A stretch of 64,000 nucleotides of DNA from an uncultured Bacteroidota bacterium (GTDB taxonomy: Bacteria > Bacteroidota > Bacteroidia > Bacteroidales > P3). This document shows, one piece after another, positions 34,601 through 56,448 of the stretch (position 1 is its first letter; the number at the start of each line of letters is the position of its first letter). The stretch spans positions 1-64,000 of the forward strand of contig CADAQX010000027.1 in NCBI GenBank assembly GCA_902790215.1. Reading direction: 5' to 3'. Made by a program: the position numbers and the translations under genes. The notes below the pieces were generated by a model that was not told the origin of the DNA, made no database searches, and saw only the letters and a program-made list of their open reading frames with translations.

Positions 34601-37600
34601 TTCCGGGCCGCCACACTATCACGGCAGTCATCCTCGTTGCGGGCGACTCCATCGTCACCAACGACACCATCACCCGTACCGTAAATGTCCGTTTCTGCGG
34701 TGGTGAATATGTTGTGGGAACATGTCCTTCCCACGATTATCCCTCGCTTACCGTTGCCATCGACACGCTTGTGAATGCCGGTATTGCAGGACCCGTCACC
34801 TTCCAGCTCTGTGAGCAGACATTCAACGAGCAACTCACCCTTGGCTATGTGGAAGGCGCAAGCCCCGCCAACACGATTACATTCACAACCGTTCCCGGTG
34901 CCACCAGCCGCGCATTGATTACACACACACCGACCAATGCCAGCAACTATGTGATGCGGTTCATCTCAGCCAACTATGTTACATTCAACAATGTTGACTT
35001 CTATGCCAACTATACCACTGGCTCGGGAAACAATGTGTTTGCCAACGTACTCAGACTTGACGGCTGCTCCAATATCCATATAACAAACTCCACTATCCGT
35101 TCCAAGAAAACCACGGCAAGCTCCACGAATGCCAACTTGGTGCTTTTGGGCGACGAGAACTACTACATCACCATCGACTACTGTCTGCTCGACAGCGGTT
35201 ACTATGCTGTACGCTCTGTTGACAACGCCAAGAGCCACAACATCACGATTTCCAATAACGACATTCTCAACTTCTGGTATCAGGGTGTCCATATCCGTAA
35301 TACCGACACGCTCTTTGTCACACGCGACAGCATTGCCGCCGGCTCGTCCTTGGCAGGCAAGCCTCTGACGGGTGTCTATGTGGCCAATGGCAACCATGTC
35401 CATGTCCACAACAACTTCATCTATCTTGTCGACAACAAGACGGGTGGCAAGCGAGGCATCAGCATCAACAACTGTAAAGGTACGAACATCGACCGTGTCA
35501 CGGTTTACAACAATATGATTTCCCTCTCCGGTTCGGCAGTGGCATCCCTGGCATCTTCGGGTATCTGGGTTGACTCTCTCTCCAAGCACGTCAGCGTGTA
35601 CTTCAACACGGTGTCGCTCTATGCCGGTGCCAGCCAGCCCACCACGCGTTCCTTCAGTTGCCAGAACTCCTCGGCAGTGCATGTCCTCAACAATATCTTC
35701 TACAATGGAAGTAAGGGCTATGCCTACTATGTCGCTATCGATACTTGTGTTTCCAACTCCAACTTCAATGTCTATTACTCCAATGCCGAACCTCACCCCA
35801 CTACAGGAGCGCGCAAATTTGCCCGTTGGGGTGCATCAGACTGTGTCGATATCGACAGTTTGCGGGTCATTAATAACAAAGACCCCAACTCTCTCGAAGA
35901 GTTTCCGTACTTTGCAGGTGTGACCAACTTAAGTCTCACACTTGCCCAGTTCGCCGACAGGGCTCAGTACAACCCCGACGTGACCGATGACGTCTTTGGT
36001 AATATCCGTCCGCAGATTCCTGCACCTACAATTGGTGCCCACGAGTTCACCCGCTTGACTCACAACATCACTATTGCTGCCATTATCGACCCCGTCATGC
36101 CGGCCATTACCACGGGTAACAACCCCGATGTGTATAATATCGAGACTGACTCCATCACCGTCAGGGTGTATATCTATAACAATGGTAACGCACCCGAGAA
36201 CAATGTCACCTGGTATGCTTACCTCGGCGATGTGTCTCCCACAGTGCAGTCAGTCACCAATACCATCAACCGTTTGCCGTTGCGCACACTTTATGAAGAC
36301 AGCGTCAAGGTTCCTTCTCCGCTTGGAATAATTGACACCCAGTATATGGTTGTCTCGTGCTCCTTGGCTCCGGGTATTACTGATGACAGACCCGATGACA
36401 ATGTCGACACTGCCGCTTTCTTCATCTATCCTGCCTACGACCTCCAACTGGTATCTGTTGCTGTCGATAGCACCGTGGATCCTCTCCACTGCCGCATGTA
36501 TCAGGTACCCCTGCGCTATACCGTCCGCAATGTCGGTAAGAAAGACATTCCCGCCGACCACCAGATTATGCTCGGCTACGACTACTATTGCCACCAGCCC
36601 AGCACCCAGAGCTTCCCCAACTTCCCCGGCTCCAACAACAGCGATATCCAGCCTATCGGCGCTCTCTTCCCTGTGGGTACCATGCTCGAGTTTGTCAATT
36701 CACCGGCCAACCAGCCCAACCTCTATCCTACGGGATACATTGGAGACATTACCGTCCGTCTGCGTGGCTTCGTCCATCACGAGTACGACATCAAGCCCCT
36801 CACCGACACCACCAACTACATCAACATCACTTCCAACCACACGCCCGAAATGCCCATACCCCATGACACCATGGTCGACTATGGCACCTACGGCAACCTA
36901 TGGGCTACACAGAACGCCAGCCGTACCATCCGTTGGCATCGCGACACAGTCAGTGGCGACTTCTTCTACAATGGTAACAACAACTACGGTCGTTCCACAC
37001 ACTGGAGCAATACACCGCAGTACTTCCACGACTCGCTCTACTACCTCAGCTGCCTCAGCACTCGTAACTGCACCAGCTACTATTCCGCCATCAATGTGGG
37101 CATCAATCCTCCGCTCTACTATGATGTGTCCATATCCGAGGTTCGCTCGCCGCGTGGTTCGGGACGTGTCTATCTTGAAAAAGACACCGTGACTCTCCGG
37201 GTGGTGAACTATGGTAGCCAGCCCATATCCAACATCCCCATTGCCTTCAAGTTCATGAATGCCAATGGACGTGTCACCTACCTTGAAGTCCACGACACCG
37301 TCCGTGTCACCATTCCCGGACGTGTCGGAGACAACGTCAGTTACTTCGACTTCTCCTTCGACACAGCATTGCTGGATATCAACCAGCCGCTCACTAATAC
37401 CACCTTCACCCTCAATGCATGGGTCTACCATCCCGACGACATGCAGCGAGGCAACGACACACTCCGCACCGTGCACACCTTCCGCTCACTGGCCGAGAAC
37501 ATCTATGACACCATCAACTCCATGGCTCCTCCCAGTGTCGAAGGATTCAACATCACACGAGTCTCTTTCAACGAACTTGACAACATCATGCCCGACATGA

Positions 37601-40590
37601 TTGGCTACGACAACCTCTGGCTGGGTAGTTACAATGCTAACCAGGCCGAGATTCCCACGCTCTTCGTGCGCCGAGGCACGGTTGATACCCTCACCGTTGA
37701 AGTTGCCAACTCGTACAATGAAATGGACTCTTCCACCGCTGCCAGTCTCTGCGTCTGCATCGACTACAACCGTGACGGTGTTTATGATTTCAATGGACCT
37801 GAGAACATCCTCAAGTCAACCTTTTCCAGTGGTGTCAAGACGCGCAGTCGTCGTGAGTACAAGAAACCCTTCACCATTCCCGAAGACGCCCACTATGGCT
37901 ATATGCGAATGCTTGTCTGGGTGCTTGACGACTCCACCGCCTTCGTTGCTGGCAACCACTCATCCTCCGCGCACCGTGATTTAGGACAGATGCAGCAATA
38001 TCTCCTCTATGTCCAGGAAGACTGCATGCTCGATTCTGTGGATGCTGCTCTCACCCGTGTGGTGTCTCCGCGCAACCACATTGTTACCGCCGCAAACCAC
38101 TATGTCGAGGTTATGCTCGCCAACAAGGGTCTTGAGCCTCTCACTTCTGCACAAATCAACTATTCATTCGACGACCATCTCAATGTCCCGCAAACGGGTA
38201 CCATCAGCTGGACTGGTAACCTCGAGCCGGGTATGAGTGAAGTGGTGCGTCTCGACTCCATCAATTTCTACGAAGGTACCACTGACCTCGTATGTACTGT
38301 CGAAGTCGAAGGCGACACCTTCCATGTCAACAACAACACGCTTCTCTATCAATACCACCGCTACTACGTTGTACGTCCCCGCTTCATCGACAGCTTCGAC
38401 GTGCCTGTCAATAAGTGGTATGCACCTGCCGGCTACAACGCCTTTACCCGCAACTACTTCGAGCGCGGCATCCCGGCCAAGAGCACCATTGTCTCGGCCT
38501 ACTCGCAGCCCAATGCGCTCGTCACCAGCTGCACCGAATCCGTTGTCACGGGTCGACATGGCAACCGCAGTGTCGTCTACACACCAATCATCGACATCCG
38601 TACCATCAAGTGCGACACCATCCATTTCCTTCTCAGCAAGAATATGGCCGAAGGCAGCTACATGCAAATGGAGTTCAAAGACTTTCAAGGCAACTGGATT
38701 GTCGTTGACGACGGTAATGTCCGCTGGGGTGTCGATTCCTCATTCAGCTGGTATGATAATCGTTTCGGTTGGACAGGCAACACCATCAATGGCGCATACG
38801 TCAGCAAGGAAATGGCTACCAAACCTCTCAGTGGCGACTTCCCGCAGGACCTCCAGTTCCGCTTCGTCTACACTACGCCGGTAACCACTTCGCCTGCCGC
38901 CAACTTCGGCGATGGCGCTGCCATTGACAACTTCAAGATTGGCCGTGCCCAGCGCGACATAGATGTGGGCGTCACCGAAATCACCCATCCTACTGCCCCG
39001 CAGTTTGGTCAAACCATCTATCCTCGTGTAATCATCCATAACTATGGTTATGATACCATCAGCCATTTCGTGGTAAGCTATAAGCCCTATGGCACATACC
39101 TTGCCATGGAAAGCATCTGCGATCAGGTTGTCTACCCGGGTGGTGACATTGAGTATGAATTCCCCGACCCGTTTGTCATTACCAACGCCTTCCCCGACAC
39201 CTTTGACATCTGCGCGTTCACCAATGTCCAGCGCGACCTCTACAAGGACAACGACACCGCCTGTGGCATATATGGTCTTGCTCCTCTTGCCAACGACCTC
39301 TATATGTACCAGATTGTCTCGCCGCTTAGTAGTGCCGTTGCGGGTGACAGTTTAGACATTACTGTACGCCTTCGTAATTTCGGACAAAATGAAATTGACG
39401 AGTGCGATTTATTCTATGTCTACAACAATGGCGACACCGTCCGTGAGCATGTTGTATTCAACGACTATCTTGGACGCAATCTTGCCTCCACCGAATTCTT
39501 CAACTACACCTTCACGCATCGCGTGCGTGCCACCATGGGCTCCATGCTCCTCCGGACCTGGTGCACCTACAGGTACGACGTATACCCCTACAACGACACC
39601 CTCTTCAGACAGATTGCCGCCATCTCGGCACTCACCGATGTACAGGCTACCGCCGCTTATGTTGACAAGCGCGACATGGAAACCTTCTATGCAGCCGTGA
39701 TTATCGACAATGTCGGCGCCCGCATGGCCAACGATTTCAAAGTCGGCTTCTGGTATGACAATGACCCCAACACGCTCATCGAGGAGGTCTTCCATCGTGA
39801 GGGTGGACTGCCCTATGGAGCTCATGTCGTCCACACCTTCCGCACCCCGTTGCCTGGTCGTTCTGCAGTCTATGATCTGGTTGCCGGATATGTCTCTGTG
39901 GATGGCGACACAAACCAGACAAACGACACCACTCGTGTCAACTTGACCGATATAGTGAAAACTATGGTCGATTTGGATGTCATGCATGTCGAGATTGAAG
40001 AAAACCGTTCCGACTCCTGCCGTGTCCGTGTAGTGGTTAAAAATGTTGGATCCTTCCCGTATACGCGTAACCTGCTCATCAAACCCTTAATCAATGGACA
40101 GCGAACCAACTATCAGACATTGGTGGGTCAATGGTACATCGATGTCGGAGATATCAAGCACATCGATATAATGAAGAGTGGCAATTACTGGAAGATTCCG
40201 AAAGATCCCAACAGAAAGTATGTGGGTTCCTGTGCAATCGAAAATATATGGGACGACAATAATCCGGCCAACGACCAGACTACAATCATCAAAGTGGTTA
40301 ACTACTTCGAGGGCGTGCCCATTTCCGACAACGACGACTTTGTCCTTGACCAGAACTACCCGAACCCCTACGATGGCTCCACTCGTATTGAGTTCAACCT
40401 GCCATTCAGTGGCACGGCTCGGTTCTTCGTCAACGATGTGGTTGGCCGTCAGGTCTATGAGCACACAGAGTACTATCGTCAAGGCCGCAATTCCATTACC
40501 TTCAAGAAAGGCAATCTGCCCGCCGGCATCTACTACTATGGAGTCGAGTACGACGGCCAGCGCCGCATGCACAAGATGATTATCAAGTAA
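28618..40590 (+). CDS. Giant (3990-residue) type IX sorted surface protein
   Basis: One uninterrupted 11,973-bp frame. The signal peptide is MKKSFLLLGLIFALSTLVSHAQ. Regions by rough residue: jelly-roll-like domain (25-220); CARDB-like modules with repeated NDT words; a first parallel beta-helix (about 640-1090) closing with SLGAYEVT; more CARDB-like modules; a second beta-helix (about 2035-2480) closing with TIGAHEFT; a GEVED-like domain near 3000-3120 (CIDYNRDGVYDFNGPENI); and a second jelly-roll (about 3250-3445). The last about 80 residues are a type A Por_Secre_tail domain (DQNYPNPYDGST, LPAGIYYYGVEYDG). It is predicted to be exported by the type IX system and anchored on the surface, as an adhesin or glycan-binding protein. 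Codons become more C-ending toward the 3' end. tilS starts on the base after its stop. Confidence 0.93.
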   Translation: MKKSFLLLGLIFALSTLVSHAQIYEYFYQDFETGTPVNYALSSTTSIGTQNTIVSGGQRAIKMTWTQNSADTVTLDTIDFSAMDMNFYTLEFMHIAYVDPTVGGLSGNQMVCYIEAKIPTRANWITLNSTHYNMDEGGSTEFNSLATFNKYSYIEWQHATTVNNQLWKKERFDLDQLLQTLDVTDKKVVLRFVLVPRNNASVPAHAWYIDDIRVRASRQPIVTPNITMLSFPDHLNYPSSRGAKLKLYATTQPRVTQGINGDSVYAEYRVGNNPTVYRAYLHRAGPNNLFEGRIPFFGYDTLIHYHIIVKDSTTNNNSAYFPKNSSQWLTFRCVRGRSNYVGPSGTTTNNSVFPFPVYADNKSEFIYDSVTMAGLGYGPGYITDFRFIITAMGVLAPRERFQIRMANMDNSVTRIDNQTYTSSAMQIVYDSVFTIMPSAPNTYMNVHLQDTFFYSGSDLVVQVIYDALHNVQATAIKHIPTPNNKRSLYSDVADAYLGYDPFTNENFESGETTTTRPWLQFMATKNLPLMSDCGVSSLIYPSFTTPCHIGTDSVVVWLKNYGVYSLSAVRLWYRIDNQPPVYYDWTGVLAGGDSVRVHLNDNQMFTVGYHTIRAWVDDTVTLNHNQSRVRDHEPYNDTVFAPFAACDGPYSGERTVGTGSGAHFSTLENCLYVLSRCGVDGPLTIKLPAGTYGVTKFPYIPGTSETNLVTFEPATATGQVTFRRPRQGVTTNEPMLVDMTEASGIRFNRINFNNGRYTDNRCDVLVQLGDNSSNCVFENCTFSDSNTITASAQAMLHTGEGDSVTVRNCTFYGGIIGIDVRGTAPDIRSVDNVVQFNTFTNQVNTAISVVNQDHVIVDSNYVNDVRTNASYTILGQYIYNGSRITRNKVYSTKGSSCIGVSDMHGNEQNYCIVANNMLVSVFDGTTNMLTTPLNIIKGSYMKVVFNSVRMNAPQFVNVAGATLGGDIISNSYFQNNVIAVFDTSNYAFNFMPGNNSATLHVDHNCYYSVSGVLNKLTGISYHNINAWRNALPSDVGSVTGNPNYTNGSRIDLRSFNALLRNVGVPIAEVPIDMFGSIRNATAPSLGAYEVTALSIDFTPVEFVTPLEDYCGAPASIPVEVVIRNTGNGSYISSDNPNHPITVYYSIDNGPVQSFTVNRNIGPNDSIHFLSTRTMSLPSGAGNSDRTYEIKWWVKCSLDPDDLNDTSVYTVISRYAAPAPAVINQNVAYNSSASIFPAVGINLWPISYYTSGNGRQQRSGISWYHSMDDTAKFYYGPVLYTTPLYADTTFYISQKRNLPLVKITEVQVNRTNPGATNPMPSWMNASTTFAVELTNCGDYPANVEGDSIIVLQSNAAGKIWVLPNVTIQPGENLVLQFRTSSTASDSTRTIYAPSTAVVTPAYTANFAVVYRDGHGVADAVPFNNVITAATTQPINWAGQGVPAAVWQGSAINLAQGASTAVPPVNTPTAGARRIAWPTNSSSGSPTATATLWQVATDSLKMRIGTTENNLILYYDNGCEGARAAVNIHVTNIPVTDLAVDEPEVNEGCNLTTTEPVTVWVHNYGIQNVSSVVLKYSLDGGATVACADTLATGLAAHANVHHTFSNTINMHAGDDTTFNIKVWVEAVSSDPNRFNDTSSAQFFSSFTPESPIVTSPQSVDYGERLLLTAGGLPSNVYAAWFSANHTPYDTTAGTFLSPYIYHPDTFFVKSIALRDVAETHVGTLASIMSNNYPSPYNPKTRYVKEQYLYTAEQIQDAGHGAGNISSLSFSLATLGNNVNSFTFDYYTIKMGTVTQSVFANGNFVTGLTQVYNSNNLTLTSDDIGWVHHTLDTPFQWDGTSNIVIEITRALSTAGISAGANTHYTAQANTVISKQHASTDQATQTSGSKGNNRPDIIFGFLEPVGCESAEEAILINVTNVPNVDATIEWPESLDTMSLTSCDTIHYYVKLTNRGYNNINDYTLRYKIDNGTWQQTTGSANNLPLGYSRILPLFDQLLVPGRHTITAVILVAGDSIVTNDTITRTVNVRFCGGEYVVGTCPSHDYPSLTVAIDTLVNAGIAGPVTFQLCEQTFNEQLTLGYVEGASPANTITFTTVPGATSRALITHTPTNASNYVMRFISANYVTFNNVDFYANYTTGSGNNVFANVLRLDGCSNIHITNSTIRSKKTTASSTNANLVLLGDENYYITIDYCLLDSGYYAVRSVDNAKSHNITISNNDILNFWYQGVHIRNTDTLFVTRDSIAAGSSLAGKPLTGVYVANGNHVHVHNNFIYLVDNKTGGKRGISINNCKGTNIDRVTVYNNMISLSGSAVASLASSGIWVDSLSKHVSVYFNTVSLYAGASQPTTRSFSCQNSSAVHVLNNIFYNGSKGYAYYVAIDTCVSNSNFNVYYSNAEPHPTTGARKFARWGASDCVDIDSLRVINNKDPNSLEEFPYFAGVTNLSLTLAQFADRAQYNPDVTDDVFGNIRPQIPAPTIGAHEFTRLTHNITIAAIIDPVMPAITTGNNPDVYNIETDSITVRVYIYNNGNAPENNVTWYAYLGDVSPTVQSVTNTINRLPLRTLYEDSVKVPSPLGIIDTQYMVVSCSLAPGITDDRPDDNVDTAAFFIYPAYDLQLVSVAVDSTVDPLHCRMYQVPLRYTVRNVGKKDIPADHQIMLGYDYYCHQPSTQSFPNFPGSNNSDIQPIGALFPVGTMLEFVNSPANQPNLYPTGYIGDITVRLRGFVHHEYDIKPLTDTTNYINITSNHTPEMPIPHDTMVDYGTYGNLWATQNASRTIRWHRDTVSGDFFYNGNNNYGRSTHWSNTPQYFHDSLYYLSCLSTRNCTSYYSAINVGINPPLYYDVSISEVRSPRGSGRVYLEKDTVTLRVVNYGSQPISNIPIAFKFMNANGRVTYLEVHDTVRVTIPGRVGDNVSYFDFSFDTALLDINQPLTNTTFTLNAWVYHPDDMQRGNDTLRTVHTFRSLAENIYDTINSMAPPSVEGFNITRVSFNELDNIMPDMIGYDNLWLGSYNANQAEIPTLFVRRGTVDTLTVEVANSYNEMDSSTAASLCVCIDYNRDGVYDFNGPENILKSTFSSGVKTRSRREYKKPFTIPEDAHYGYMRMLVWVLDDSTAFVAGNHSSSAHRDLGQMQQYLLYVQEDCMLDSVDAALTRVVSPRNHIVTAANHYVEVMLANKGLEPLTSAQINYSFDDHLNVPQTGTISWTGNLEPGMSEVVRLDSINFYEGTTDLVCTVEVEGDTFHVNNNTLLYQYHRYYVVRPRFIDSFDVPVNKWYAPAGYNAFTRNYFERGIPAKSTIVSAYSQPNALVTSCTESVVTGRHGNRSVVYTPIIDIRTIKCDTIHFLLSKNMAEGSYMQMEFKDFQGNWIVVDDGNVRWGVDSSFSWYDNRFGWTGNTINGAYVSKEMATKPLSGDFPQDLQFRFVYTTPVTTSPAANFGDGAAIDNFKIGRAQRDIDVGVTEITHPTAPQFGQTIYPRVIIHNYGYDTISHFVVSYKPYGTYLAMESICDQVVYPGGDIEYEFPDPFVITNAFPDTFDICAFTNVQRDLYKDNDTACGIYGLAPLANDLYMYQIVSPLSSAVAGDSLDITVRLRNFGQNEIDECDLFYVYNNGDTVREHVVFNDYLGRNLASTEFFNYTFTHRVRATMGSMLLRTWCTYRYDVYPYNDTLFRQIAAISALTDVQATAAYVDKRDMETFYAAVIIDNVGARMANDFKVGFWYDNDPNTLIEEVFHREGGLPYGAHVVHTFRTPLPGRSAVYDLVAGYVSVDGDTNQTNDTTRVNLTDIVKTMVDLDVMHVEIEENRSDSCRVRVVVKNVGSFPYTRNLLIKPLINGQRTNYQTLVGQWYIDVGDIKHIDIMKSGNYWKIPKDPNRKYVGSCAIENIWDDNNPANDQTTIIKVVNYFEGVPISDNDDFVLDQNYPNPYDGSTRIEFNLPFSGTARFFVNDVVGRQVYEHTEYYRQGRNSITFKKGNLPAGIYYYGVEYDGQRRMHKMIIK

Positions 40591-46571: not shown

Positions 46572-48464
46572 ATGAAAAAGTTTTATTTCTTAATCATCAT
46601 TCTGAGTATAATGGGCGCAACACCGTTGTGTGCACAGTACCATATCACGGGTGATACCATACAATACATGGACTCAATTTATTGGAGACCAGATTGGGTT
46701 GACACGCTGGTTGACCCCGCAAATATACCTCATGAATCCTTTACCTTTACTTATGGATTTCCTCAATCACCTGGAGCCGAATGGCTTATGAAGCATACCG
46801 TGGATCATCCGATACGTGTTATTGGCATAGCTTGCGCGGTGGCGGCAAGATACCAGCACTGGCCTGAAGACCTTGTCCAACCCGTCGAAACCTCTGTACA
46901 GGAATATCTCCGAATTTACCGTAGAAAGCGCGATTCGACCGATGTACCGCTGCGTTCCATACCGTGGGATCCCACCGCCCCGCATCGGTATCTTAATTGT
47001 CAAAGCTCCTCTGCCCGATCCCCCAATGATCCAACAATCATCAACTGCGACTCGATTACCTATGGGTACCCATACGTACATCCCGTATATGAGGTTTATT
47101 TCGAGGACAATCCCTTGGTTATCGTTGACTCGTTTTGCATCGGAATGACCAACCACAGTGGTGGGATATGGGATTGTATATTTCCGAAAAATTTCAGTAT
47201 GTATGGAAATCCTCCTTGCGGTATCAGACGTGAATTAACTTATATTATGATCTATGACAGTAACGGTGTAATAATTCCGGCAGGCCAGCCTACGGAATAT
47301 ACTACATGGAATCTATGGTACATTTTCCCCATTCTTTCGCAGGATACGGATTTTTCGCTGTTAGATTCCTGTCCCGCGGTGGGAAATGTGTGGATAGACA
47401 CCGCGGGCGGCGGCAGCGTTCTGCGCTGGGACACCGACACGCTCCACACCCAGTGGAGGCTCGGCATCAGCGACACCGGGGTTGCCCACAACACCCTTTA
47501 TCTCGATACCCTGCTGGAGGTACCCTACATCAACCTCGACTCTTTGGGTATTGAGCCCCCGTTTTCGGTGCAGGTGCGCCCCCAGTGCCTCTGCTATGAA
47601 TACTGTGAGGTGTGGGGCGACTGGGGCGACTGCACCGAGTTTCTGCCCTTGCCTGTGCCTGACACCTGCCGACCTGTGGAGAATCTGCAGTTCGTAAGGA
47701 CGGGACGCAGAACGGGAACACTGACATGGATTCCCGACACGGTCCAGACCCTATGGGAGGTGTCTGTCGGCCTCGTCGACGGGGATGTGTCGGAAGCCTT
47801 TTTTGACACCCTCGTGACGGTTCCGTTCCTTGACATCGACAGCACGATGGCGCCCACCGTCTTCACGGCACACGTCCGCGCTATCTGCGGAGAGGACAAC
47901 CAGAGCGACTGGGTATCGGTCACTGTAGATGGCACAGATACGTGCCGACCTGTGGAGAATCTGCAGTTCGTGAGGACGGGACGCAGAACGGGAACACTGA
48001 CATGGATTCCCGACACGGTCCAGACCCTATGGGAGGTGTCTGTCGGTCTTGTCGGTGGGAACGTGTCAGACGCCTTTTTTGACACCCTCGTGACGGTTCC
48101 GTTCCTCGATATCGACAGCACGATGGCACCTGCCGTTTTTATGGCACACGTCCGCGCCATCTGCGGAGAGGACAACATGAGTGACTGGGTGTCGGTCACA
48201 GCCGAACCCTATGAGAGCATCGCCCAGGCTGTGGCTCCCGACGTCCAGCTTGTCCCCAATCCCGCTGACGGCCTTGTGCGTGTGGTGGCTCCCGACGGGC
48301 TGCGCAGTATTGAGGCCTATGACATGTCAGGACGCAGGATGCTTGCCTTAACTGCCAACTCCACAGAGGCATCTTTCAATGTCGCGGACTGGCCTGCCGG
48401 CACCTATATCGTCATCCTCCGCACCGCGGCAGGCACCGCTGTGCAGCGGCTGGCGGTGAAATAG
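46572..48464 (+). CDS. Type IX (type A) sorted surface protein with duplicated FN3-like units
   Basis: A 630-residue secreted protein. Signal peptide MKKFYFLIIILSIMGATPLCAQ. Residues about 30-260 form a domain also seen, more weakly, in the protein at 58214. Two consecutive 92-residue FN3-like units (about 366-457 and 458-549) are almost identical: both run CRPVENLQFVRTGRRTGTLT to RAICGEDN.SDWVSVT and differ at about half a dozen core positions. The C-terminus (LVPNPADGLVRVV, YDMSGRRML, LPAGTY-like WPAGTYIVIL) is a Por_Secre_tail sorting signal. Ligand unknown; adhesion is plausible. Confidence 0.88.
   Translation: MKKFYFLIIILSIMGATPLCAQYHITGDTIQYMDSIYWRPDWVDTLVDPANIPHESFTFTYGFPQSPGAEWLMKHTVDHPIRVIGIACAVAARYQHWPEDLVQPVETSVQEYLRIYRRKRDSTDVPLRSIPWDPTAPHRYLNCQSSSARSPNDPTIINCDSITYGYPYVHPVYEVYFEDNPLVIVDSFCIGMTNHSGGIWDCIFPKNFSMYGNPPCGIRRELTYIMIYDSNGVIIPAGQPTEYTTWNLWYIFPILSQDTDFSLLDSCPAVGNVWIDTAGGGSVLRWDTDTLHTQWRLGISDTGVAHNTLYLDTLLEVPYINLDSLGIEPPFSVQVRPQCLCYEYCEVWGDWGDCTEFLPLPVPDTCRPVENLQFVRTGRRTGTLTWIPDTVQTLWEVSVGLVDGDVSEAFFDTLVTVPFLDIDSTMAPTVFTAHVRAICGEDNQSDWVSVTVDGTDTCRPVENLQFVRTGRRTGTLTWIPDTVQTLWEVSVGLVGGNVSDAFFDTLVTVPFLDIDSTMAPAVFMAHVRAICGEDNMSDWVSVTAEPYESIAQAVAPDVQLVPNPADGLVRVVAPDGLRSIEAYDMSGRRMLALTANSTEASFNVADWPAGTYIVILRTAAGTAVQRLAVK
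47667..48218 (+). repeat. Tandem 276-bp duplication inside a surface-protein gene
   Basis: Two in-frame units, 47667-47942 and 47943-48218, with near-identical DNA over most of their length, including synonymous positions. This indicates a recent duplication or ongoing gene conversion. Confidence 0.85.
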
Positions 48465-48489
48465 CCGCAAGGATTCTTTCTGCAATGCA

Positions 48490-50397
48490 TTATTCTTCCT
48501 TCGGGGGGATGACAATGAAGTCGCCGTGCTGCTGGAAGTGCTCGATAAGCTGGGCATAGAAGCGGTGGCGGGAGAGTGTTTCGGCATTGCCGAGGATGAT
48601 GAGTTTCATGCGGGCGCGTGTGATGGCTACGTTCATGCGGCGCAGGTCGGAGAGGAAACCTATAGCGCCCTGGTCGTTGTCGCGCACCATGCTGATGATG
48701 ATGACGTCGCGTTCCTGCCCCTGGAAGCCATCGACGCTGTTGACCGAGATTTGACGGCGCAGGGTGCGGAAGAATTTCTGCCATTTGAGTAGTCGGCGGA
48801 TGAGGCGTACCTGTGCCCGGTAGGGGGAGATGATGCCGAAATCGACCCGTTCACCGACGATGCGGTCGATGCCTATCATTTCGATGTAGTCGCGCAGGGT
48901 GTGGACGAGCAGCCTTGCCTCTTCGGAGTTGGTGCGGCTGAGGGTGCGGCTTTCTTTTTCGCCGAAACGGCATTGTGAGGTGTCGAACCAGGTGAGCGGA
49001 GTGTCGAGGGGTGATATTTGGCGGTCGGCCACTTGCGGGGCTGCGGTGAGTCGGTTGTGATAGAACCAGCGCGAGGGGAAGGCCATGATGTCGCGGTGCA
49101 TGCGGTACTGTGTGGTGAGGAGGGTGAGGCATTCGGGGTGGTTGTGCGCTATGCGCTGCATGAGGGTGTGGCTGAGACCGCCGCGCGCGGCTTCGGGGCA
49201 TTTGACAGTGGGAGGAAGCTGGCAGTGGTCGCCACTGAAGATGACCCGGTCGGCTTTGAGGATGGCAGCCCAGCAGGCGGGTTCGAGGGCTTGGGCGGCT
49301 TCGTCGATGAAGAGGGTGGAGAAGCGTCGGCGTTCAAGGATGTGGTAGGCGCTGCCGATAAGGGTGCAGGACACTACGCGGGCGTGGTCGAAGAGGTCGT
49401 ATTGGATGCGTATCTCCAGTTCTGTGGCGCGGGAGCGCAGTTTGGCCATGCGTGAGCGTTTCTCGCGTGAGAGGTTTTCGCTTTCGCGGGCTTCGCGCAG
49501 GGCTTTGCGGATGCCCCAGAGTTCGGGGTAGTCGGGGTGTGCGGCGTAGCGGCGCTCATAGCTGCAGTCAAGCATCTCGTCGCTCATGCGCAGTGGGTTG
49601 CCCACACGCAGCACGTTGACTCCACGGCGCGAAAGTTGTTCGCTTATCCAGTCAACAGCGGCATTGCTGGGTGCGCAGACAAGGACTTGTGTTTCGCGCT
49701 GGAGGGTTTCGATGATGGCCTCGACAAGTGTGGTGGTTTTGCCGGTGCCGGGAGGCCCGTGGACGATGGCCACTTCCTGTGCTTCGATTACGTGCTGCAC
49801 GGCGTTCTCCTGGTCGGGGTTGAGCCAGGGGAACGAGAGCCGGGGAAGGTGGCGGAAATGGGGCTTGAGGGGTCCGATGAGTGTGTCGCGCAGGTGGACG
49901 AATTTCTCGTCGTCGCTACGCATGGCAGTGGAGAGGGCATCGAGCATGACACGATAGCTGGTGGTGTCGATGCACAGCCTGACGCCGAGAATCTTGTTCT
50001 GAGCGGTGGCACGGATGGACTGCAGTGCGCTTTTGCCGGGAACGGTGACGGTGAGTTGCCCGATGTCGGCCTGCTCGATGTAGCATTGGTGAGTGAGCTC
50101 GCGCAGCTGGCTGCCGTCGTCGTTGAGGTGGAAGAAGACGACAGGTTTGCCGGGTTCGAAGTCGGTTTCGGTCTCGTCATCGGATACTTCGTAGTTGATG
50201 GTTAGCACCAATTGGTCGAGGGCGTTGTAGTCGCTTGCACCGAGGGTGACAGGATAGCGGCAGGAGGGTTCCTGGACTTGTGTGGCAAAGAGCCCGTCGG
50301 TGAGCGTGCGGGCATAGGTTTCCTGTTCGTGTCGCATTTCCAGTTGGAGCAGTTCGACGAGGTGCTGGAGAGAGGATATGGGGGACGTGATGTTCAT
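48490..50397 (-). CDS. UPF1/IGHMBP2-like superfamily 1B DNA/RNA helicase
   Basis: A 635-residue helicase. Motifs in order: Walker [18 protein letters not shown] (about 213-229), Walker [17 protein letters not shown], motif [14 protein letters not shown], motif [15 protein letters not shown], motif [19 protein letters not shown] and motif [19 protein letters not shown]. The N-terminal about 190 residues form the beta-barrel/stalk region of the AAA_11/AAA_12 family. Bacterial members are thought to unwind DNA or RNA; the precise role is unclear. It is encoded divergently from the hydrogenase operon. Confidence 0.9.
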
Positions 50398-50442
50398 GTT
50401 TGTATGCTTTTAACGAAAAAGATTGAAAATTATTTTACAATC

Positions 50443-50475
50443 TTTTGGCTCAATCAAATAAATTATGTATCTTTG
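50443..50475 (+). promoter_or_regulatory. Promoter of the hydrogenase operon
   Basis: TTTTG (50443-50447) and TATCTTTG (50468-50475), spaced 20 bases, leaving a leader of about 95 bases before the first gene. Confidence 0.75.
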
Positions 50476-50577
50476 CATATCCTGTCGTATCATGTATATG
50501 ATACGTAAGGGTATGTGTATTAGTTAGTAATATATAAACAATAAGTAAATATTAATCCAAAAACAAGGAGTTTTCAT

Positions 50578-50973
50578 ATGACAAAAGTAAAATCATTAGC
50601 TGACCTCAAAGCAATGAGAGAAAAGCTTCAGTCGAGTCTGGATATCCGCGAGAAGGCAGAGAATCCCGAGTCGCTTGTGCAAATTAAAGTCGCTATGGCC
50701 ACGTGCGGTATCGCAGCGGGAGCCAAGCAGGTTATGGAACACATGATGGCTAAGGCTGAAGAGCTCAAGATTGCCGCTGTTTTCACCCAGACCGGTTGCA
50801 TGGGCTATTGCCATGCCGAGCCTACGCTGGAAGTGCGTGTCCCGGGCAAGGACCCTATCGTATTCGGACACGTTGACAACGACCGCGCTGACGAGATCCT
50901 GACCAAGTACGTCATGAACGGCGAACTGGTTGAAGGCATTATCCCGGTCAATTACGAAACCATTGACAAGTAA
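50578..50973 (+). CDS. HndB-like [2Fe-2S] ferredoxin-fold hydrogenase subunit
   Basis: A 131-residue protein with a thioredoxin-like [2Fe-2S] fold. Cys ligands appear in MATCGIAAGAKQV (about residues 41-53) and QTGCMGYCHAEP (about 76-87), as in the HndB subunit of NADP-reducing hydrogenases. It likely relays electrons in the complex encoded downstream. It begins at ATG 50578, preceded by a good AAGGAG ribosome-binding site (50565-50570). The next gene starts 17 bases after its stop. Confidence 0.88.
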   Translation: MTKVKSLADLKAMREKLQSSLDIREKAENPESLVQIKVAMATCGIAAGAKQVMEHMMAKAEELKIAAVFTQTGCMGYCHAEPTLEVRVPGKDPIVFGHVDNDRADEILTKYVMNGELVEGIIPVNYETIDK

Positions 50974-50990
50974 AAAACGGAGGACACACT

Positions 50991-52769
50991 ATGGCAAAGT
51001 ACAAAATGCATGTTCTCATCTGTGGCGGTACTGGATGCAAATCCAGCAACAGCCTGGATATTATCGAAAACTAGGTGCAGGTCATCAAGACCGGTTGCTT
51101 CGGTTTCTGCGAGAAAGGCCCCATTGTGAAGATTATGCCTGACAATACTTTCTACACCCAGGTGAAACCCGAGGATGTACGCCGTATTGTTGAAGAGCAC
51201 CTGATCAAGGGCCGTAAGGTTCCCGAGCTGCTGTACATGAACCCCGAAAACAAGGAGCACGTGTCAGACTCGAAACACATGGACTTCTACAAGAAACAGA
51301 TCCGTATTGCCCTGCGCAACTGCGGTTTTGTGGATCCCGAAAATATTGAAGAGTGCATCTCCCGCGGTGGTTATGAGGCACTGGCAAAGTGCATCACTGA
51401 GATGACCCCCGAGCAGGTTATCGCCGAGGTGAAGGCTTCGGGTCTTCGCGGACGTGGCGGTGCTGGTTTCCCCACTGGTTTGAAATGGGAACTCTGCGCC
51501 AAGAACAAGGCTGACCAGAAGTATGTCATCTGCAACGCCGATGAGGGCGACCCCGGTGCATTCATGGACCGTTCCATTCTGGAAGGCGACCCCAACAGCA
51601 TCGTCGAGGCTATGGCCATCTGCGGCTATGCCATCGGTGCCAGCAAGGGTTTGGTTTACATCCGCGCTGAATATCCTCTGGCCATTGAGCGCCTGAAAAT
51701 CGCCATCAACCAGGCTCGCGAATACGGCCTGTTGGGCGAGGACATCCTGGGCACAGGCTTCAACTTCGACATCGAGCTCCGCTATGGTGCCGGTGCTTTC
51801 GTCTGCGGTGAGGAAACCGCCCTTATCCACTCCATGGAAGGCCAGCGTGGCGAGCCCACCCTGAAACCCCCGTTCCCCGCTGTCAGCGGCTATATGGGCA
51901 AGCCCTCCAACGTGAACAATGTCGAGACCTTCGCCAATGTGCCCGTTATCATTACCAAGGGCGCTGAGTGGTTCAGCAAGATTGGTACCGAGAAGTCCAA
52001 AGGTACCAAGGTCTTCGCTCTTGCCGGTCAGATTAACAACGTGGGTCTGATTGAGGTTCCCATGGGCATCACCCTGCGCGAGATTATCTATGAGATTGGT
52101 GGCGGTATCAAAGACGGTCGCCAGTTTAAGGCTGTCCAGACTGGTGGTCCTTCCGGCGGTTGCTTGACTGCCAAGCACCTCGACACTGCTATTGACTACG
52201 ACAGCCTGGTGGCTGCCGGCTCCATGATGGGTTCCGGCGGTATGGTTGTCATGGACGAGACCAGCTGTATGCCCGCTATTGCCAAGTTCTACCTCGAGTT
52301 CACCTGCGAGGAGAGCTGCGGCAAGTGCTCGCCCTGCCGTATCGGTAACAAGCGCCTCTGCGAAATTCTTGAGAAGATCACTGACGGCCGCGGTACTATG
52401 GAAGACCTTGAAGAACTCCGCAACCTGGCAGCTGTCATCAAGGATACCGCTCTCTGCGGACTGGGTCAGACCTCCCCGAACCCCGTACTCTCCACCCTCG
52501 ACAACTTCTGGGATGAGTATGTGGAGCACGTTGTCGACAAGAAATGCCGTGCCGGTGTCTGCAAGAAACTGATGAGCTATGCTATCGACCGCGAGAAGTG
52601 CATCGGCTGCGGCAAGTGCGCCAAGGGCTGCCCCGTCGAGGCTATCACACGCACCGACTACACCGCTCCCGGCCACAAGCTGGCTTCTATGGTTATCGAC
52701 AGCACCAAGTGTATCAAGTGCGGCGCATGTATCAACAACTGTAAATTTGGTGCCATCTCCATTCAGTAA
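50991..52769 (+). pseudogene. NuoF/HndC-like hydrogenase subunit interrupted by an in-frame TAG
   Basis: Reading from ATG 50991 (behind GGAGG at 50979-50983) gives 27 residues, including ICGGTGC. A TAG at 51072-51074 stops it. The same frame then continues for 564 codons from GTG 51075, straight into TGCFGFC. The N-terminal [2Fe-2S] domain is thus split and seems to lack about a dozen residues. The remainder is intact: FMN/NADH-binding GLRGRGGAGFPTGLKW and CNADEGDPGAFMDR; the 4Fe-4S site ESCGKCSPCRIGNKRLCEI; and a C-terminal two-cluster ferredoxin (CIGCGKCAKGCPVEA, CIKCGACINNCKFGA). The usual role is to pass electrons between NAD(P)H and the HydA subunit. It may be functional from GTG 51075, be damaged, or reflect an assembly error. 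Confidence 0.8.
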
Positions 52770-52808
52770 ACGGTACAATAATTAATATTTAAAAGAAGAC
52801 TTTACAAT

Positions 52809-54575
52809 ATGATTAATCTCACTATAGATAATAAACCGGTTCAAGTTCCCGAAGGCACCACGATTCTTAAAGCTGCCCGCATGGCCGGTATCGATATTCC
52901 CACTCTTTGCCATTTCGAGCTTGATGGGATGAATTTTGAAAACAAACCCGGCGGATGCCGCGTGTGTGTTGTCGAGGTGAAAGGCCGCCGCAATCTGGCT
53001 CCCGCCTGCGCCACCGATGTGATGGAAGGCATGGAAGTGCTGACCCACAGCGCCCGCGTCATCAACGCCCGCAAAACCGTCGTCGAGCTTATCCTCAGCG
53101 ACCACCCGAATGACTGTCTCCAGTGCGAGAAGAACGGCGACTGCGAGTTGCAGAGCCTTACCAAACGCCTCGGTATTAAGGAAATCCCCTTCAAGGGCGC
53201 TACTTCCACTTACCGTAAGGACAGCACCCTCAGCGTTTACCGCGATATGGACAAGTGCGTCATGTGCCGCCGCTGCGAGTCGATGTGCAACAAGTTCATG
53301 TCAGTAGGTGCCCTGAGCGGTGTCAACCGTGGTTTCCAGGCAGTCGTCGCTCCCGCTTTCGAGCAGAATCTCGGCGACAGCAGCTGCGTCAACTGCGGCC
53401 AGTGCGTCCAGGTGTGCCCCGTCGGAGCTCTTACTTTGGTGGATAACATCAGCGACGTGCTCAAGGCCATCGCCGATCCTACCAAGAAGGTTGTCGTCCA
53501 GACCGCTCCCGCTGTCCGCGTGGCTCTTGGTGAAGAGTTTGGCATGAAACCCGGCGAAATTGTCACCGGCAAAATGGCTGCTGCACTCCGTCGTCTTGGT
53601 TTCGACCAGGTTTACGACACTGACTGGAGCGCTGACCTCACCATCATGGAAGAAGGCACCGAGCTCCTCGGCCGCCTGAAGAAAGCCCTTGCCGGCGAAG
53701 AGGTAAAACTGCCTATGTTCACCTCCTGCTGCCCCGCTTGGGTCACCTTCTACGAGAAGAACTTCCCCGATCTGCTTGAATACCCCTCGACCGCCAAGTC
53801 GCCCCAGGGTATGTTCGGCGCAGTCGCCAAGAACTACCTGGCCCCCAAACTGGGTGTCAAACGCGAAGACCTCGTGGTCGTTTCCATTATGCCTTGCTTG
53901 GCCAAAAAGAGCGAGCGCGCACGTGAGGAACTGGCCGTCAACGGCGACAGCGATGTCAACTACACCCTCAGCACCCGCGAGCTGGCTCACATGATTCGCC
54001 AGTGCAACCTCAACCTCAACGACATGCCCGAAGAGGACTTCGACAGCCCGCTCGGTCAGTCCACAGGTGCAGCTGTCATCTTCGGCGCTACCGGTGGTGT
54101 TATGGAGGCTGCTCTCCGTACCGCCTACGAGCTGCACACTGGCAAGACCCTGCCCAAGGTCGAGTTCCACGAGACCCGTGGTTTCGACGGTGTGAAGGAA
54201 GCTACCATCGATATCGACGGCTTCCCCCTGAAGATTGCCGTCGTCTATAGCCTTGCAAATGCCCGCAAGATGATGGAGCAGGTGCGTCAGGGCAATCCCA
54301 ATGGCTATCACTTCATCGAGGTGATGGCTTGCCCCGGCGGTTGTATCGGCGGTGCCGGTCAGCCCTATCACCACGGCAACAGCGAGATTATCCGCAAGCG
54401 CATGGAAGCCATCTACCGCGAGGACGAAGGCAAGCCCATCCGCAAGAGCCACGAGAATCCCGAAATTCTCGCCATCTACGAGGAGTACTATGGTGAACCT
54501 TGCGGCCACCTCAGCCACGAGCAACTGCACACCCACTACTTCGACAAGTCCGATAAAGTGGAGGCAACAAAATAA
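52809..54575 (+). CDS. [FeFe] hydrogenase catalytic subunit (HydA/HndD type)
   Basis: A 588-residue enzyme catalysing 2H+ + 2e- = H2. In order: a plant-type [2Fe-2S] domain (FENKPGGCRVCVVEVKG, Cys in CHFEL); the His-ligated 4Fe-4S site HPNDCLQCEKNGDCELQ; two 4Fe-4S clusters (CVMCRRCESMCNKF, CVNCGQCVQVCPVGA); and the H-cluster domain with L1 TSCCPAWVTFYE, L2 MPCLAKKSE and L3 MACPGGCIGGAGQP. All H-cluster Cys are present, so it is predicted to be active. A small-subunit-like tail ends the protein. Together with the NuoE- and NuoF-like subunits it forms a multimeric, possibly electron-bifurcating, NAD(P)-linked hydrogenase. The maturases HydEFG are not in the window. Confidence 0.96.
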   Translation: MINLTIDNKPVQVPEGTTILKAARMAGIDIPTLCHFELDGMNFENKPGGCRVCVVEVKGRRNLAPACATDVMEGMEVLTHSARVINARKTVVELILSDHPNDCLQCEKNGDCELQSLTKRLGIKEIPFKGATSTYRKDSTLSVYRDMDKCVMCRRCESMCNKFMSVGALSGVNRGFQAVVAPAFEQNLGDSSCVNCGQCVQVCPVGALTLVDNISDVLKAIADPTKKVVVQTAPAVRVALGEEFGMKPGEIVTGKMAAALRRLGFDQVYDTDWSADLTIMEEGTELLGRLKKALAGEEVKLPMFTSCCPAWVTFYEKNFPDLLEYPSTAKSPQGMFGAVAKNYLAPKLGVKREDLVVVSIMPCLAKKSERAREELAVNGDSDVNYTLSTRELAHMIRQCNLNLNDMPEEDFDSPLGQSTGAAVIFGATGGVMEAALRTAYELHTGKTLPKVEFHETRGFDGVKEATIDIDGFPLKIAVVYSLANARKMMEQVRQGNPNGYHFIEVMACPGGCIGGAGQPYHHGNSEIIRKRMEAIYREDEGKPIRKSHENPEILAIYEEYYGEPCGHLSHEQLHTHYFDKSDKVEATK

Positions 54576-54586
54576 ATGTAGAATGC

Positions 54587-54653
54587 GTGAATGTGTTGGT
54601 GTGTGAGTCGTGCAGCGCAAGCCATTAACGAATTAGCGCATCAACACATTCAC
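54587..54653. repeat. 12-bp inverted repeat between hydA and the nuoE-like gene
   Basis: Arms GTGAATGTGTTG (54587-54598) and CAACACATTCAC (54642-54653) enclose 43 bases. This could form an intercistronic mRNA hairpin that adjusts the ratio of the last subunit, or stabilises the upstream message. Confidence 0.5.
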
Positions 54654-54667
54654 AAAATATAAATAAT

Positions 54668-55147
54668 ATGGCAAACATCAAGTTATCTGAAGAGAAAATA
54701 AATATCATCAAGGAGATTGCCAAATCGTTTGGCAATAAGCCGGGCGAGGTTATCAATGTCCTCCACCAGGTGCAGGGTAAATTCGGCTACCTTCCCGCCG
54801 AAGTCCAGGAAGTTGTCGCCCACGAGCTTAATATCCCGGTTTCCCGTGTATATGGCATCGTATCCTTCTACAGCTTCTTTACCATGGAGCCCAAGGGCAA
54901 ACACCCCATCGACATCTGTCTGGGTACTGCCTGCTACGTGCGTGGTGCCGAGAAGGTGCTGGACGCTTTCAAGCGCGCCCTCAACGTCGAAGTTGGCAAG
55001 TGCACTGCCGACGGCAAGTTCTCGCTCAACACCCTCCGTTGCGTCGGTGCCTGCGGTCTGGCTCCTGTGGCCATGATTGGCGAAAAGGTATATGGACGTC
55101 TTACTCCTGACCTCGTGCCCAGCATTTTGGCCGAATACAACGACTAA
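54668..55147 (+). CDS. NuoE/HndA-like [2Fe-2S] hydrogenase subunit
   Basis: A 159-residue protein. An N-terminal helical domain (FGNKPGEVINVLHQVQGKFG, YGIVSFYSFF) leads into a thioredoxin-like [2Fe-2S] domain with ligands CLGTACYVRGA (about 90-100) and LRCVGACGLAP (about 125-135). It pairs with the NuoF-like subunit as in complex I and in electron-bifurcating hydrogenases. It is the last gene of the operon, separated from hydA by a 92-base gap and followed by a strong terminator. Confidence 0.95.
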   Translation: MANIKLSEEKINIIKEIAKSFGNKPGEVINVLHQVQGKFGYLPAEVQEVVAHELNIPVSRVYGIVSFYSFFTMEPKGKHPIDICLGTACYVRGAEKVLDAFKRALNVEVGKCTADGKFSLNTLRCVGACGLAPVAMIGEKVYGRLTPDLVPSILAEYND

Positions 55148-55163
55148 TCAACAATCATCACTA

Positions 55164-55198
55164 CAAAGCCCCTACACGCGGTAGGGGCTTTGTTTTTC
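55164..55198 (+). terminator. Terminator of the hydrogenase operon
   Basis: Perfect 12-bp stem (55164-55175 and 55181-55192), 5-base loop, then TTTTTCTTT. It ends six bases before the next gene. Confidence 0.9.
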
Positions 55199-55203
55199 TT
55201 TCC

Positions 55204-55758
55204 ATGGCTCTTACTCAAACTCCCCAGTGGGTGGCGGCCTATACTTCACCCCGTGCTGAAAAGAAAGTGACCGACCGCATCGTGCAGGATCTCGGCATAG
55301 AGGCTTATGTGCCCCTCCACCGTGTGCTGCGCAAATGGAGCGACCGTGTCAAGAGTGTCGAGGTACCTCTGATACCCTCTTACACTTTTGTCAAACTGCG
55401 CGAATGCGATCTCTGGTCTGTGCGCGGTGTGCAGGGCATCTGTGGCTTTGTCACCTTCCCCTCTACGGGCATCGCTGTCATCCCCGAGCGCGACATACTC
55501 AGTATCCGACGACTGGCCGAATCGATGGAGAATATATATGTGCGCAACACCGACCAGCTGAAAACAGGAGCCTATGTCAGGGTGATAGGGGGTGAGTTCG
55601 AAGGCATGACTGGGGTTATCACGGACGACAAACACGGCGGTAACTTCGCCGTTGAAGTGGCCGAGCTGAATATCTATCTGACAGTAACAGTGCAGCAGGA
55701 GCTGCTGCAAGTCATTGATCCGCCCAAGAAGAAACCCGTGGGTCTGCTATATAAGTAA
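55204..55758 (+). CDS. UpxY-like NusG-family transcription antiterminator
   Basis: A 184-residue NusG paralogue. The NGN domain (about 8-110) has WVAAYTSPRAEKKVTDRI, IEAYVPLHRVLRKWSDR and PLIPSYTFVKL. A KOW motif lies at about 125-155 (KTGAYVRVIGGEFEGMTGVI). Its closest relatives in pattern are the UpxY regulators that in Bacteroidota let polymerase read through leaders of surface-polysaccharide operons. Here no polysaccharide genes follow. Instead it runs into a convergent nitroreductase gene, overlapping its end by 12 bases. Its start lies right after the hydrogenase terminator, so some readthrough is possible. Confidence 0.85.
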   Translation: MALTQTPQWVAAYTSPRAEKKVTDRIVQDLGIEAYVPLHRVLRKWSDRVKSVEVPLIPSYTFVKLRECDLWSVRGVQGICGFVTFPSTGIAVIPERDILSIRRLAESMENIYVRNTDQLKTGAYVRVIGGEFEGMTGVITDDKHGGNFAVEVAELNIYLTVTVQQELLQVIDPPKKKPVGLLYK

Positions 55759-56382
55759 GTCTTCCAACCCCACTTTGGGCACATAATGGATGCCGTCCTC
55801 ACGGTAATAGGCGTGGCTTTCGTCGGGGGCAATTTTTTTCAATTCAATTTTCTCAATTCCTTTGCCAATGGCAACAATCATCAGCGGGTCAAGAGGCAGT
55901 TCCAGTTCTCGCACAATCTCACCCTTGTTGAATGCGCCGATGGCCAATCCGTTCAATCCCATTTCCACGGCTTTCAGCAGCATACTCTGCAGGGCAATGC
56001 CGAGGTCGATGTCAACCATCTTGTTTTCTTCCACAGTGCTGCACACTATGATGAACGCCTCCGGCTCGGTGCCGGGCAGGGGCAGGTGCAGTTCGGGCAG
56101 GGCTGCACCCAGGCGTATGAGCTTCAACACCTTGTCAGCTCCTGTGTCGCGCGTCACCAAGCGGAAACGCAGCACCTGCTGGTTGCGCGCCGAAGGCACT
56201 TTGCTGCATACCGCCACGATGCGTTCCAGTTCTTCGTGTTTTACCACATAGTCTTTCAAATAGCCGCGCTGGCTGCGGTTGCGCAGCAGCAGTTCGTCGA
56301 GGGTGTGACCTACCCGTTTCACCTTGGTGCGTCCGGTGCCGAACACTTCCTCGTATCGTTTTTCCAAGTAATTGTCTGCCAT
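55747..56382 (-). CDS. Nitroreductase-family flavoprotein
   Basis: A 211-residue protein. NRSQRGYL near 35-42 and SKVPSARNQQVLRFRLV near 57-73 fit the FMN-binding core of the nitroreductase family; GIALQSMLLKAVEMGLNGL is the later FMN-contacting helix. These enzymes reduce nitro compounds, quinones or flavins with NAD(P)H. I chose ATG 56382 (MADNYLEKRY), since the longer frame would cross the promoter at 56449. It converges with the UpxY-like gene with a 12-base overlap. Confidence 0.88.
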   Translation of the reverse strand: MADNYLEKRYEEVFGTGRTKVKRVGHTLDELLLRNRSQRGYLKDYVVKHEELERIVAVCSKVPSARNQQVLRFRLVTRDTGADKVLKLIRLGAALPELHLPLPGTEPEAFIIVCSTVEENKMVDIDLGIALQSMLLKAVEMGLNGLAIGAFNKGEIVRELELPLDPLMIVAIGKGIEKIELKKIAPDESHAYYREDGIHYVPKVGLEDLLI

Positions 56383-56448
56383 AGTATGTTTGTTTTTATT
56401 GTGTTGGCAACAGTCTCCAGCTGTGGAATGACGAATATTACCGGTCTG

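Follow-up and report, generated by a model that had tools for sequence, protein, structure and literature searches.

On the forward strand of the window, by which we mean the whole 64,000-nucleotide stretch of DNA that was analyzed, we identified four genes that, on the evidence of their sequences, form an electron-bifurcating-type [FeFe]-hydrogenase operon (hndB-like/hydB/hydA/hydC) in which hydB is damaged. The series begins with an hndB-like gene (50578..50973, 131 aa), whose product is a relative of thioredoxin-like [2Fe-2S] ferredoxins with three cysteines only (43, 74 and 78). Its match to PF01257 scores 19.8 bits, below the cut-off of 24.8, and the provisional name was assigned from the size and place of the gene and from this weak match. 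A Shine-Dalgarno-like GGAGG (50979-50983) follows, and the identical motif is found ahead of hydB in several relatives. hydB itself, the gene for the flavin subunit, is read in two pieces (50991..51074 and 51075..52769). On its 3' side lie hydA (52809..54575, 588 aa), encoding the catalytic [FeFe]-hydrogenase subunit (NF040763, 872.5 bits versus a cut-off of 765) with three H-cluster motifs, and hydC (54668..55147, 159 aa), encoding a NuoE-like [2Fe-2S] subunit (PF01257, 170.9 bits). Both an [FeFe] HydA and a NuoE-like HydC are encoded beside hydB. All of these features are on the forward strand, as is a single open frame of 3990 codons (28618-40590) that is by far the longest in the window.

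The 5' piece of hydB opens with an ATG at 50991 and consists of 27 sense codons through position 51071, followed by a TAG stop (51072-51074). The GTG directly adjacent at 51075 begins a frame of 564 codons that runs without interruption to a TAA at 52767-52769. The first Cys pair of the N-terminal domain (CGGTGC) is located 5' of the TAG and the second (TGCFGFC) 3' of it, and both are in one frame. This arrangement, from the GGAGG at 50979 to the second Cys pair after the GTG, had been described in an earlier note made from the same DNA, and direct reading confirmed every element of it. The window frame contains an FMN/NADH-binding core of the NuoF type (PF01512, 158 bits; PF10589, covering the 4Fe-4S region, 109.5 bits) and a C-terminal ferredoxin domain with two 4Fe-4S motifs (two stretches of PF00037). 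The N-terminal match to PF01257, which scores 33.5 bits in an intact relative, is absent from the window frame. The note had also called the product a NuoF-like hydrogenase subunit with an intact downstream core and intact neighboring subunits; the FMN/NADH core, the matches to solved HydB structures described below, the open frames and the family matches all agree with this. We take HydB to belong to the class found in trimeric electron-bifurcating [FeFe]-hydrogenases, presumably of the group A3 type. Among relatives, the first 27 codons (50991-51071 in the window) stand out for their nucleotide conservation, at 94–100% versus roughly 80–100% downstream, as if the start of the gene carried an extra signal.

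The spacing between the two Cys motifs of hydB is nearly invariant. Of 109 relative loci, 105 have a spacing of 29 residues and one has 28; the other three loci start inside hydB and are not measurable. Some of these loci represent the same record twice, and among distinct sequences the spacing is 29 in 88 of 89 and 28 in the other. The relatives, where named, are metagenome-assembled Bacteroidales, mostly from the guts of ruminants or other herbivores. In the window the spacing comes to 17 if the stop is included as a position, and is therefore 12 short, which gives an exact figure (12 codons, 36 nt) to the earlier estimate of about a dozen missing residues. Sizing the gap against full-length homologues, a check that the note had proposed, places a 36-nt gap after position 51072 in nucleotide alignments with both nearest relatives, G074 (the L009 record) and G047 (the L010 record), which are 91.4% and 90.9% identical to the window over hydB. 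No other genome of the window's own species was found for comparison, the nearest relative being the one at 91.4%. The gap is the sole indel longer than 4 nt in the aligned blocks (48355-56406 for G047 and 48456-55151 for G074).

Thirteen residues are gone from the window hydB and one stop stands in their place, for a net difference of 36 nt. The TAG is assembled from bases of both flanks, which agrees with the note's suggestion of an in-frame deletion that made the stop at its junction. The breakpoints show no bases in common, and a repeat-driven assembler misjoin is consequently not an obvious cause. By calculation, 17 of 1771 possible 36-nt deletions within hydB would leave a stop at the junction, a figure without evidential weight, since it was the stop that drew attention to this case. 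The valine at the position of GTG 51075 is invariant in 25 relatives and is encoded by GTG, GTT, GTC or GTA across the 13 relatives inspected. As an ordinary valine codon position with varied codon use, it is not an evolved start. We also considered a strain-switch chimera at the junction and rejected it. Over the 81 nt before the junction, the window and the four relatives set against it agree at 95–100%, but the relatives are unusually alike here among themselves too (98% between L008 and L014, versus 80–91% downstream); the blocks from -413 to -18, misaligned in several pairs of this comparison, were excluded.

The lesion is private to the window genome. A search of related genomes for the same junction, also proposed in the note, found the exact sequence in only one of 120 congeneric genomes, the window's own. 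Hits with two mismatches occur in 12 other genomes, compared with three genomes for a backward control, and no such hit was on the contig listed as carrying hydB in the same genome. With the intact protein as query, 68 places in these 120 genomes were identified that span residues 1-603/604 at no less than 89% identity. Sixty-six of these near-full-length copies are free of stops, while the window copy has one TAG and the copy in G003 has a TAG and a TAA; an interrupted hydB is thus not a normal form of the gene. Two genomes (G063 and G060) have further near-full-length copies at 71–73% identity, both open, and the remaining genomes gave partial or distant matches that were left out of the count of open and broken copies. 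We found no second hydB in the window genome, a draft that is 96.85% complete, where five further hits are all short and score weakly, none above 28.3 bits. Among the titles and opening parts of abstracts that were found, none mentions this lesion, which is no proof of its absence from print.

Two further irregular copies were observed in the course of the survey. In G003 (L125:3474-5282, the same record as L026), the stops at codons 304 and 316 occur among four other substitutions within codons 293-316, and these clustered changes look like sequence error. In G016 (L126:906-2615), about 20 additional codons lie in frame near codon 199, and the contig ends inside the gene.

Three of the 120 genomes encode a HydB with no N-terminal thioredoxin-like domain at all. 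The frames in G030 (L190:2693-4207, forward strand), G079 (L191:1566-3059, reverse strand) and G027 (L192:3650-5137, forward strand) are open, have their own start codons and encode 504, 497 and 495 aa, respectively. Like the window copy they consist of a NuoF-like core with Fe-S motifs and are followed by hydA; hydC is also present in two of the three, and the G079 contig ends inside hydA. The hydA genes of L190 and L192 keep the three H-cluster motifs. No hndB-like gene was found beside these copies in the fetched stretches of the three genomes. In G030 and G079 the neighboring gene encodes a helicase that shares 58% and 62% identity, respectively, with the helicase next to the window operon, and from this shared neighbor the place of the two copies looks orthologous to that of the window. 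G027 has other neighbors in its fetched stretch. However, the domain-less proteins are only 53–58% identical to normal HydB, and 11 residues of the FMN/NAD (flavin) loop, around NADEGDPGAFMDR, are also missing. Judged by this divergence and by the loss in the flavin loop, the domain-less HydB is an old lineage and not the same event as the break in the window. It is conceivable that the lineage represents a flavin-poor or flavin-free bifurcating-type hydrogenase.

The remainder of hydB is under strong purifying selection. From the GTG, comparison with L009 gives a dS of 0.494 and a dN of 0.0061, a ratio of 0.012. This value falls between those of its neighbors, 0.007 for hydA and 0.024 for hydC, and the hndB-like gene is without any non-synonymous change. 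Only two of the 564 residues are private to the window when compared against five relatives, and no relaxation of selection after the break is visible. The half-domain on either side of the junction is no exception: the first 27 codons show no non-synonymous difference from L009, L010 or L007, and within the 68 codons after the GTG one residue differs from L009 but is shared with L014, leaving none private to the window. Under free drift along the whole branch, about 320 changes would be expected in hydB and about 40 in the half-domain, estimated as half of dS multiplied by the number of non-synonymous sites. This absence of drift implies a very young break or, alternatively, DNA that is unbroken in the organism.

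The hydrogenase complement of the genome extends beyond this operon. HydE, HydF and HydG all score above their cut-offs, and a group B1 [FeFe]-hydrogenase is encoded on contig C12 (L129:1216-2673, reverse strand; 529.6 bits versus a cut-off of 450). A larger hydrogenase-like protein encoded near it (L131:415-2166, reverse strand) falls below all cut-offs and may be of the sensory kind. Given the three Hyd proteins and the group B1 enzyme, release of H2 is probably independent of the hydB operon. In Bacteroides, according to the available text of PMC12578642, H2 production is attributable to the group B enzyme, and the A3 hydrogenase gave no fitness defect that was significant under the conditions tested. 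Bifurcating-type enzymes are not always dispensable, as the related enzyme Hnd is described in the available text of PMC10084766 as essential to a sulfate reducer for the oxidation of ethanol.

In the intact protein the missing residues are numbers 28-40, which make up the second half of a predicted helix (21-34) and the loop that precedes a strand (41-46). These assignments are from an AlphaFold2 model of the first 115 residues built with 25 relatives (mean pLDDT 81.9, and 63 around the first Cys pair). Reading through the TAG would therefore not restore the domain, as half of the first helix and the following loop would be missing either way. This bears on the proposal that a suppressor tRNA or recoding allows readthrough, or that two peptides together form a working domain. 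The two pieces do share one frame and each has its Cys pair, but residues 28-40 of the relatives are in neither, which makes the complementing peptides raised in the note unlikely. In addition, no tRNA with a CUA anticodon occurs at the 39 tRNA places identified in the draft with Rfam (30 as loci, eight in seven fetched stretches and one within the window), at all of which ARAGORN read the anticodon; at 96.85% completeness, however, the draft may have missed one. Of the long ORFs in the window that begin with ATG and do not overlap one another, seven of 33 also end in TAG; these were counted as frames and not checked individually as genes. Recoding had already been judged unlikely in the note, and readthrough or complementation now seems highly improbable. 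Folding of the junction RNA revealed nothing unusual that might favor bypass or restart (z of -0.79 for the window and -1.21 for an intact relative). A restart, at the GTG or at a later ATG such as the one at 51279 just before the core, might instead yield a still-working HydB without its N-terminal cluster. The adjacent, in-frame TAG and GTG, the complete and constrained core and the domain-less frames of the three congeners are all consistent with such a protein, and the N-terminal cluster of a NiFe relative is termed a dead end for electron transfer in the available text of PMC8880783. The same text, however, describes the N-terminal domain as stabilizing the C-terminal domain of HydC and the cluster as within reach of that of HydC, at 11 Å. 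The GTG is moreover a plain, fortuitous valine codon; the half-domain should drift if the core alone mattered, although the break may be too young for this to be seen; and the congeners without the domain belong to an old lineage that has lost part of the flavin loop as well. The restart without the domain that the note envisaged is therefore possible in principle but found no support, and we consider a functional truncation unlikely. We are at least as skeptical of the related idea that a real junction and a working core-only HydB, started at the GTG or a later ATG, represent a first step in one species towards the domain-less form of its congeners, with the cluster being dispensable.

The main rival to a recent deletion is an artefact of assembly or consensus, in which hydB is whole in the organism itself and the 36 nt dropped out during assembly, during gap closing or by way of chimeric reads. 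The apparently complete constraint on the gene, including a half-domain that would be useless (no private change in the 27 codons before the TAG or in the 68 after the GTG), is what an unbroken gene would show. The restriction of the lesion to a single genome points the same way, and the patch in G003 indicates that such faults occur in congeneric drafts. On the other hand, the junction ends are without a repeat, the junction lies inside a contig of 118.7 kb, its aligned flanks contain no second indel longer than 4 nt, and k-mer assemblers join only what some reads join. On balance an artefact is possible but less likely than a recent deletion. We favor a recent, strain-level deletion of 36 nt in hydB whose breakpoints left the TAG and removed the N-terminal domain, to which we assign a probability of roughly 0.55; the resulting allele is probably null. 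Of the four alternatives in the note (reinitiation without the domain, complementing peptides, new damage and a wrong assembly), new damage is the best fit to the 36-nt gap against the nearest relatives and to the 66 open copies among 68. Against a recent deletion it must be said that a null allele is unexpected under such constraint, that there is no trace of decay beyond the deletion and that an artefact fits these observations equally well.

In a recent deletion of this kind, the loss of 36 nt would have taken out 13 of the residues that separate the Cys pairs in the thioredoxin-like [2Fe-2S] domain, and its breakpoints would have created the TAG. Translation from ATG 50991 would stop after 27 residues, and any HydB restarted at GTG 51075 or a later ATG would be without a folded N-terminal domain. 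A core-only protein of this kind might retain some chemistry and would probably assemble poorly. The bifurcating-type complex would then probably be absent or poorly working in the strain, a loss presumably tolerated because of the group B1 [FeFe]-hydrogenase. The lesion looks ordinary in kind and not like a new mechanism. If real, it is a further example of a newly arisen disabling allele in a hydrogenase gene of the gut, warns against reading bifurcating-hydrogenase activity from the presence of genes, and provides a natural test of the need for the N-terminal [2Fe-2S] domain of HydB. If it is an artefact, the result is a correction to the assembly.

The best match of the intact congener among solved structures is HydB of the NiFe HydABCSL complex (PDB 7t2r chain B, E 6e-251). 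This protein also has an N-terminal thioredoxin-like domain with one [2Fe-2S] cluster, according to the available text of PMC8880783. However, its partners are NiFe subunits, whereas hydA in the window encodes an [FeFe]-hydrogenase and the N-terminal domain of the window HydB is broken. The tetrameric HndABCD hydrogenase (PMC10084766) resembles the window operon in having the gene for a small fourth subunit together with those for NuoF-like, NuoE-like and [FeFe] subunits. Substitution of the hndB-like protein for the broken HydB domain is unlikely, as it has three cysteines only and HndB is described in the available text of PMC10084766 as probably without a redox centre. The intact congener also aligns nearly end to end with HydB of the electron-bifurcating HydABC complexes (PDB 7q4v B, 8a6t B and 7p5h B; E 8e-251, 5e-208 and 1e-197). 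In the Thermotoga maritima complex a [2Fe-2S] cluster of HydB is 12 Å from that of HydC (available text of PMC9499530), and this cluster is presumably that of the N-terminal domain. Compared with these HydB proteins, the window core has the same domains and the operon encodes the same partners, but in the window copy a stop replaces 13 residues of the N-terminal [2Fe-2S] domain.
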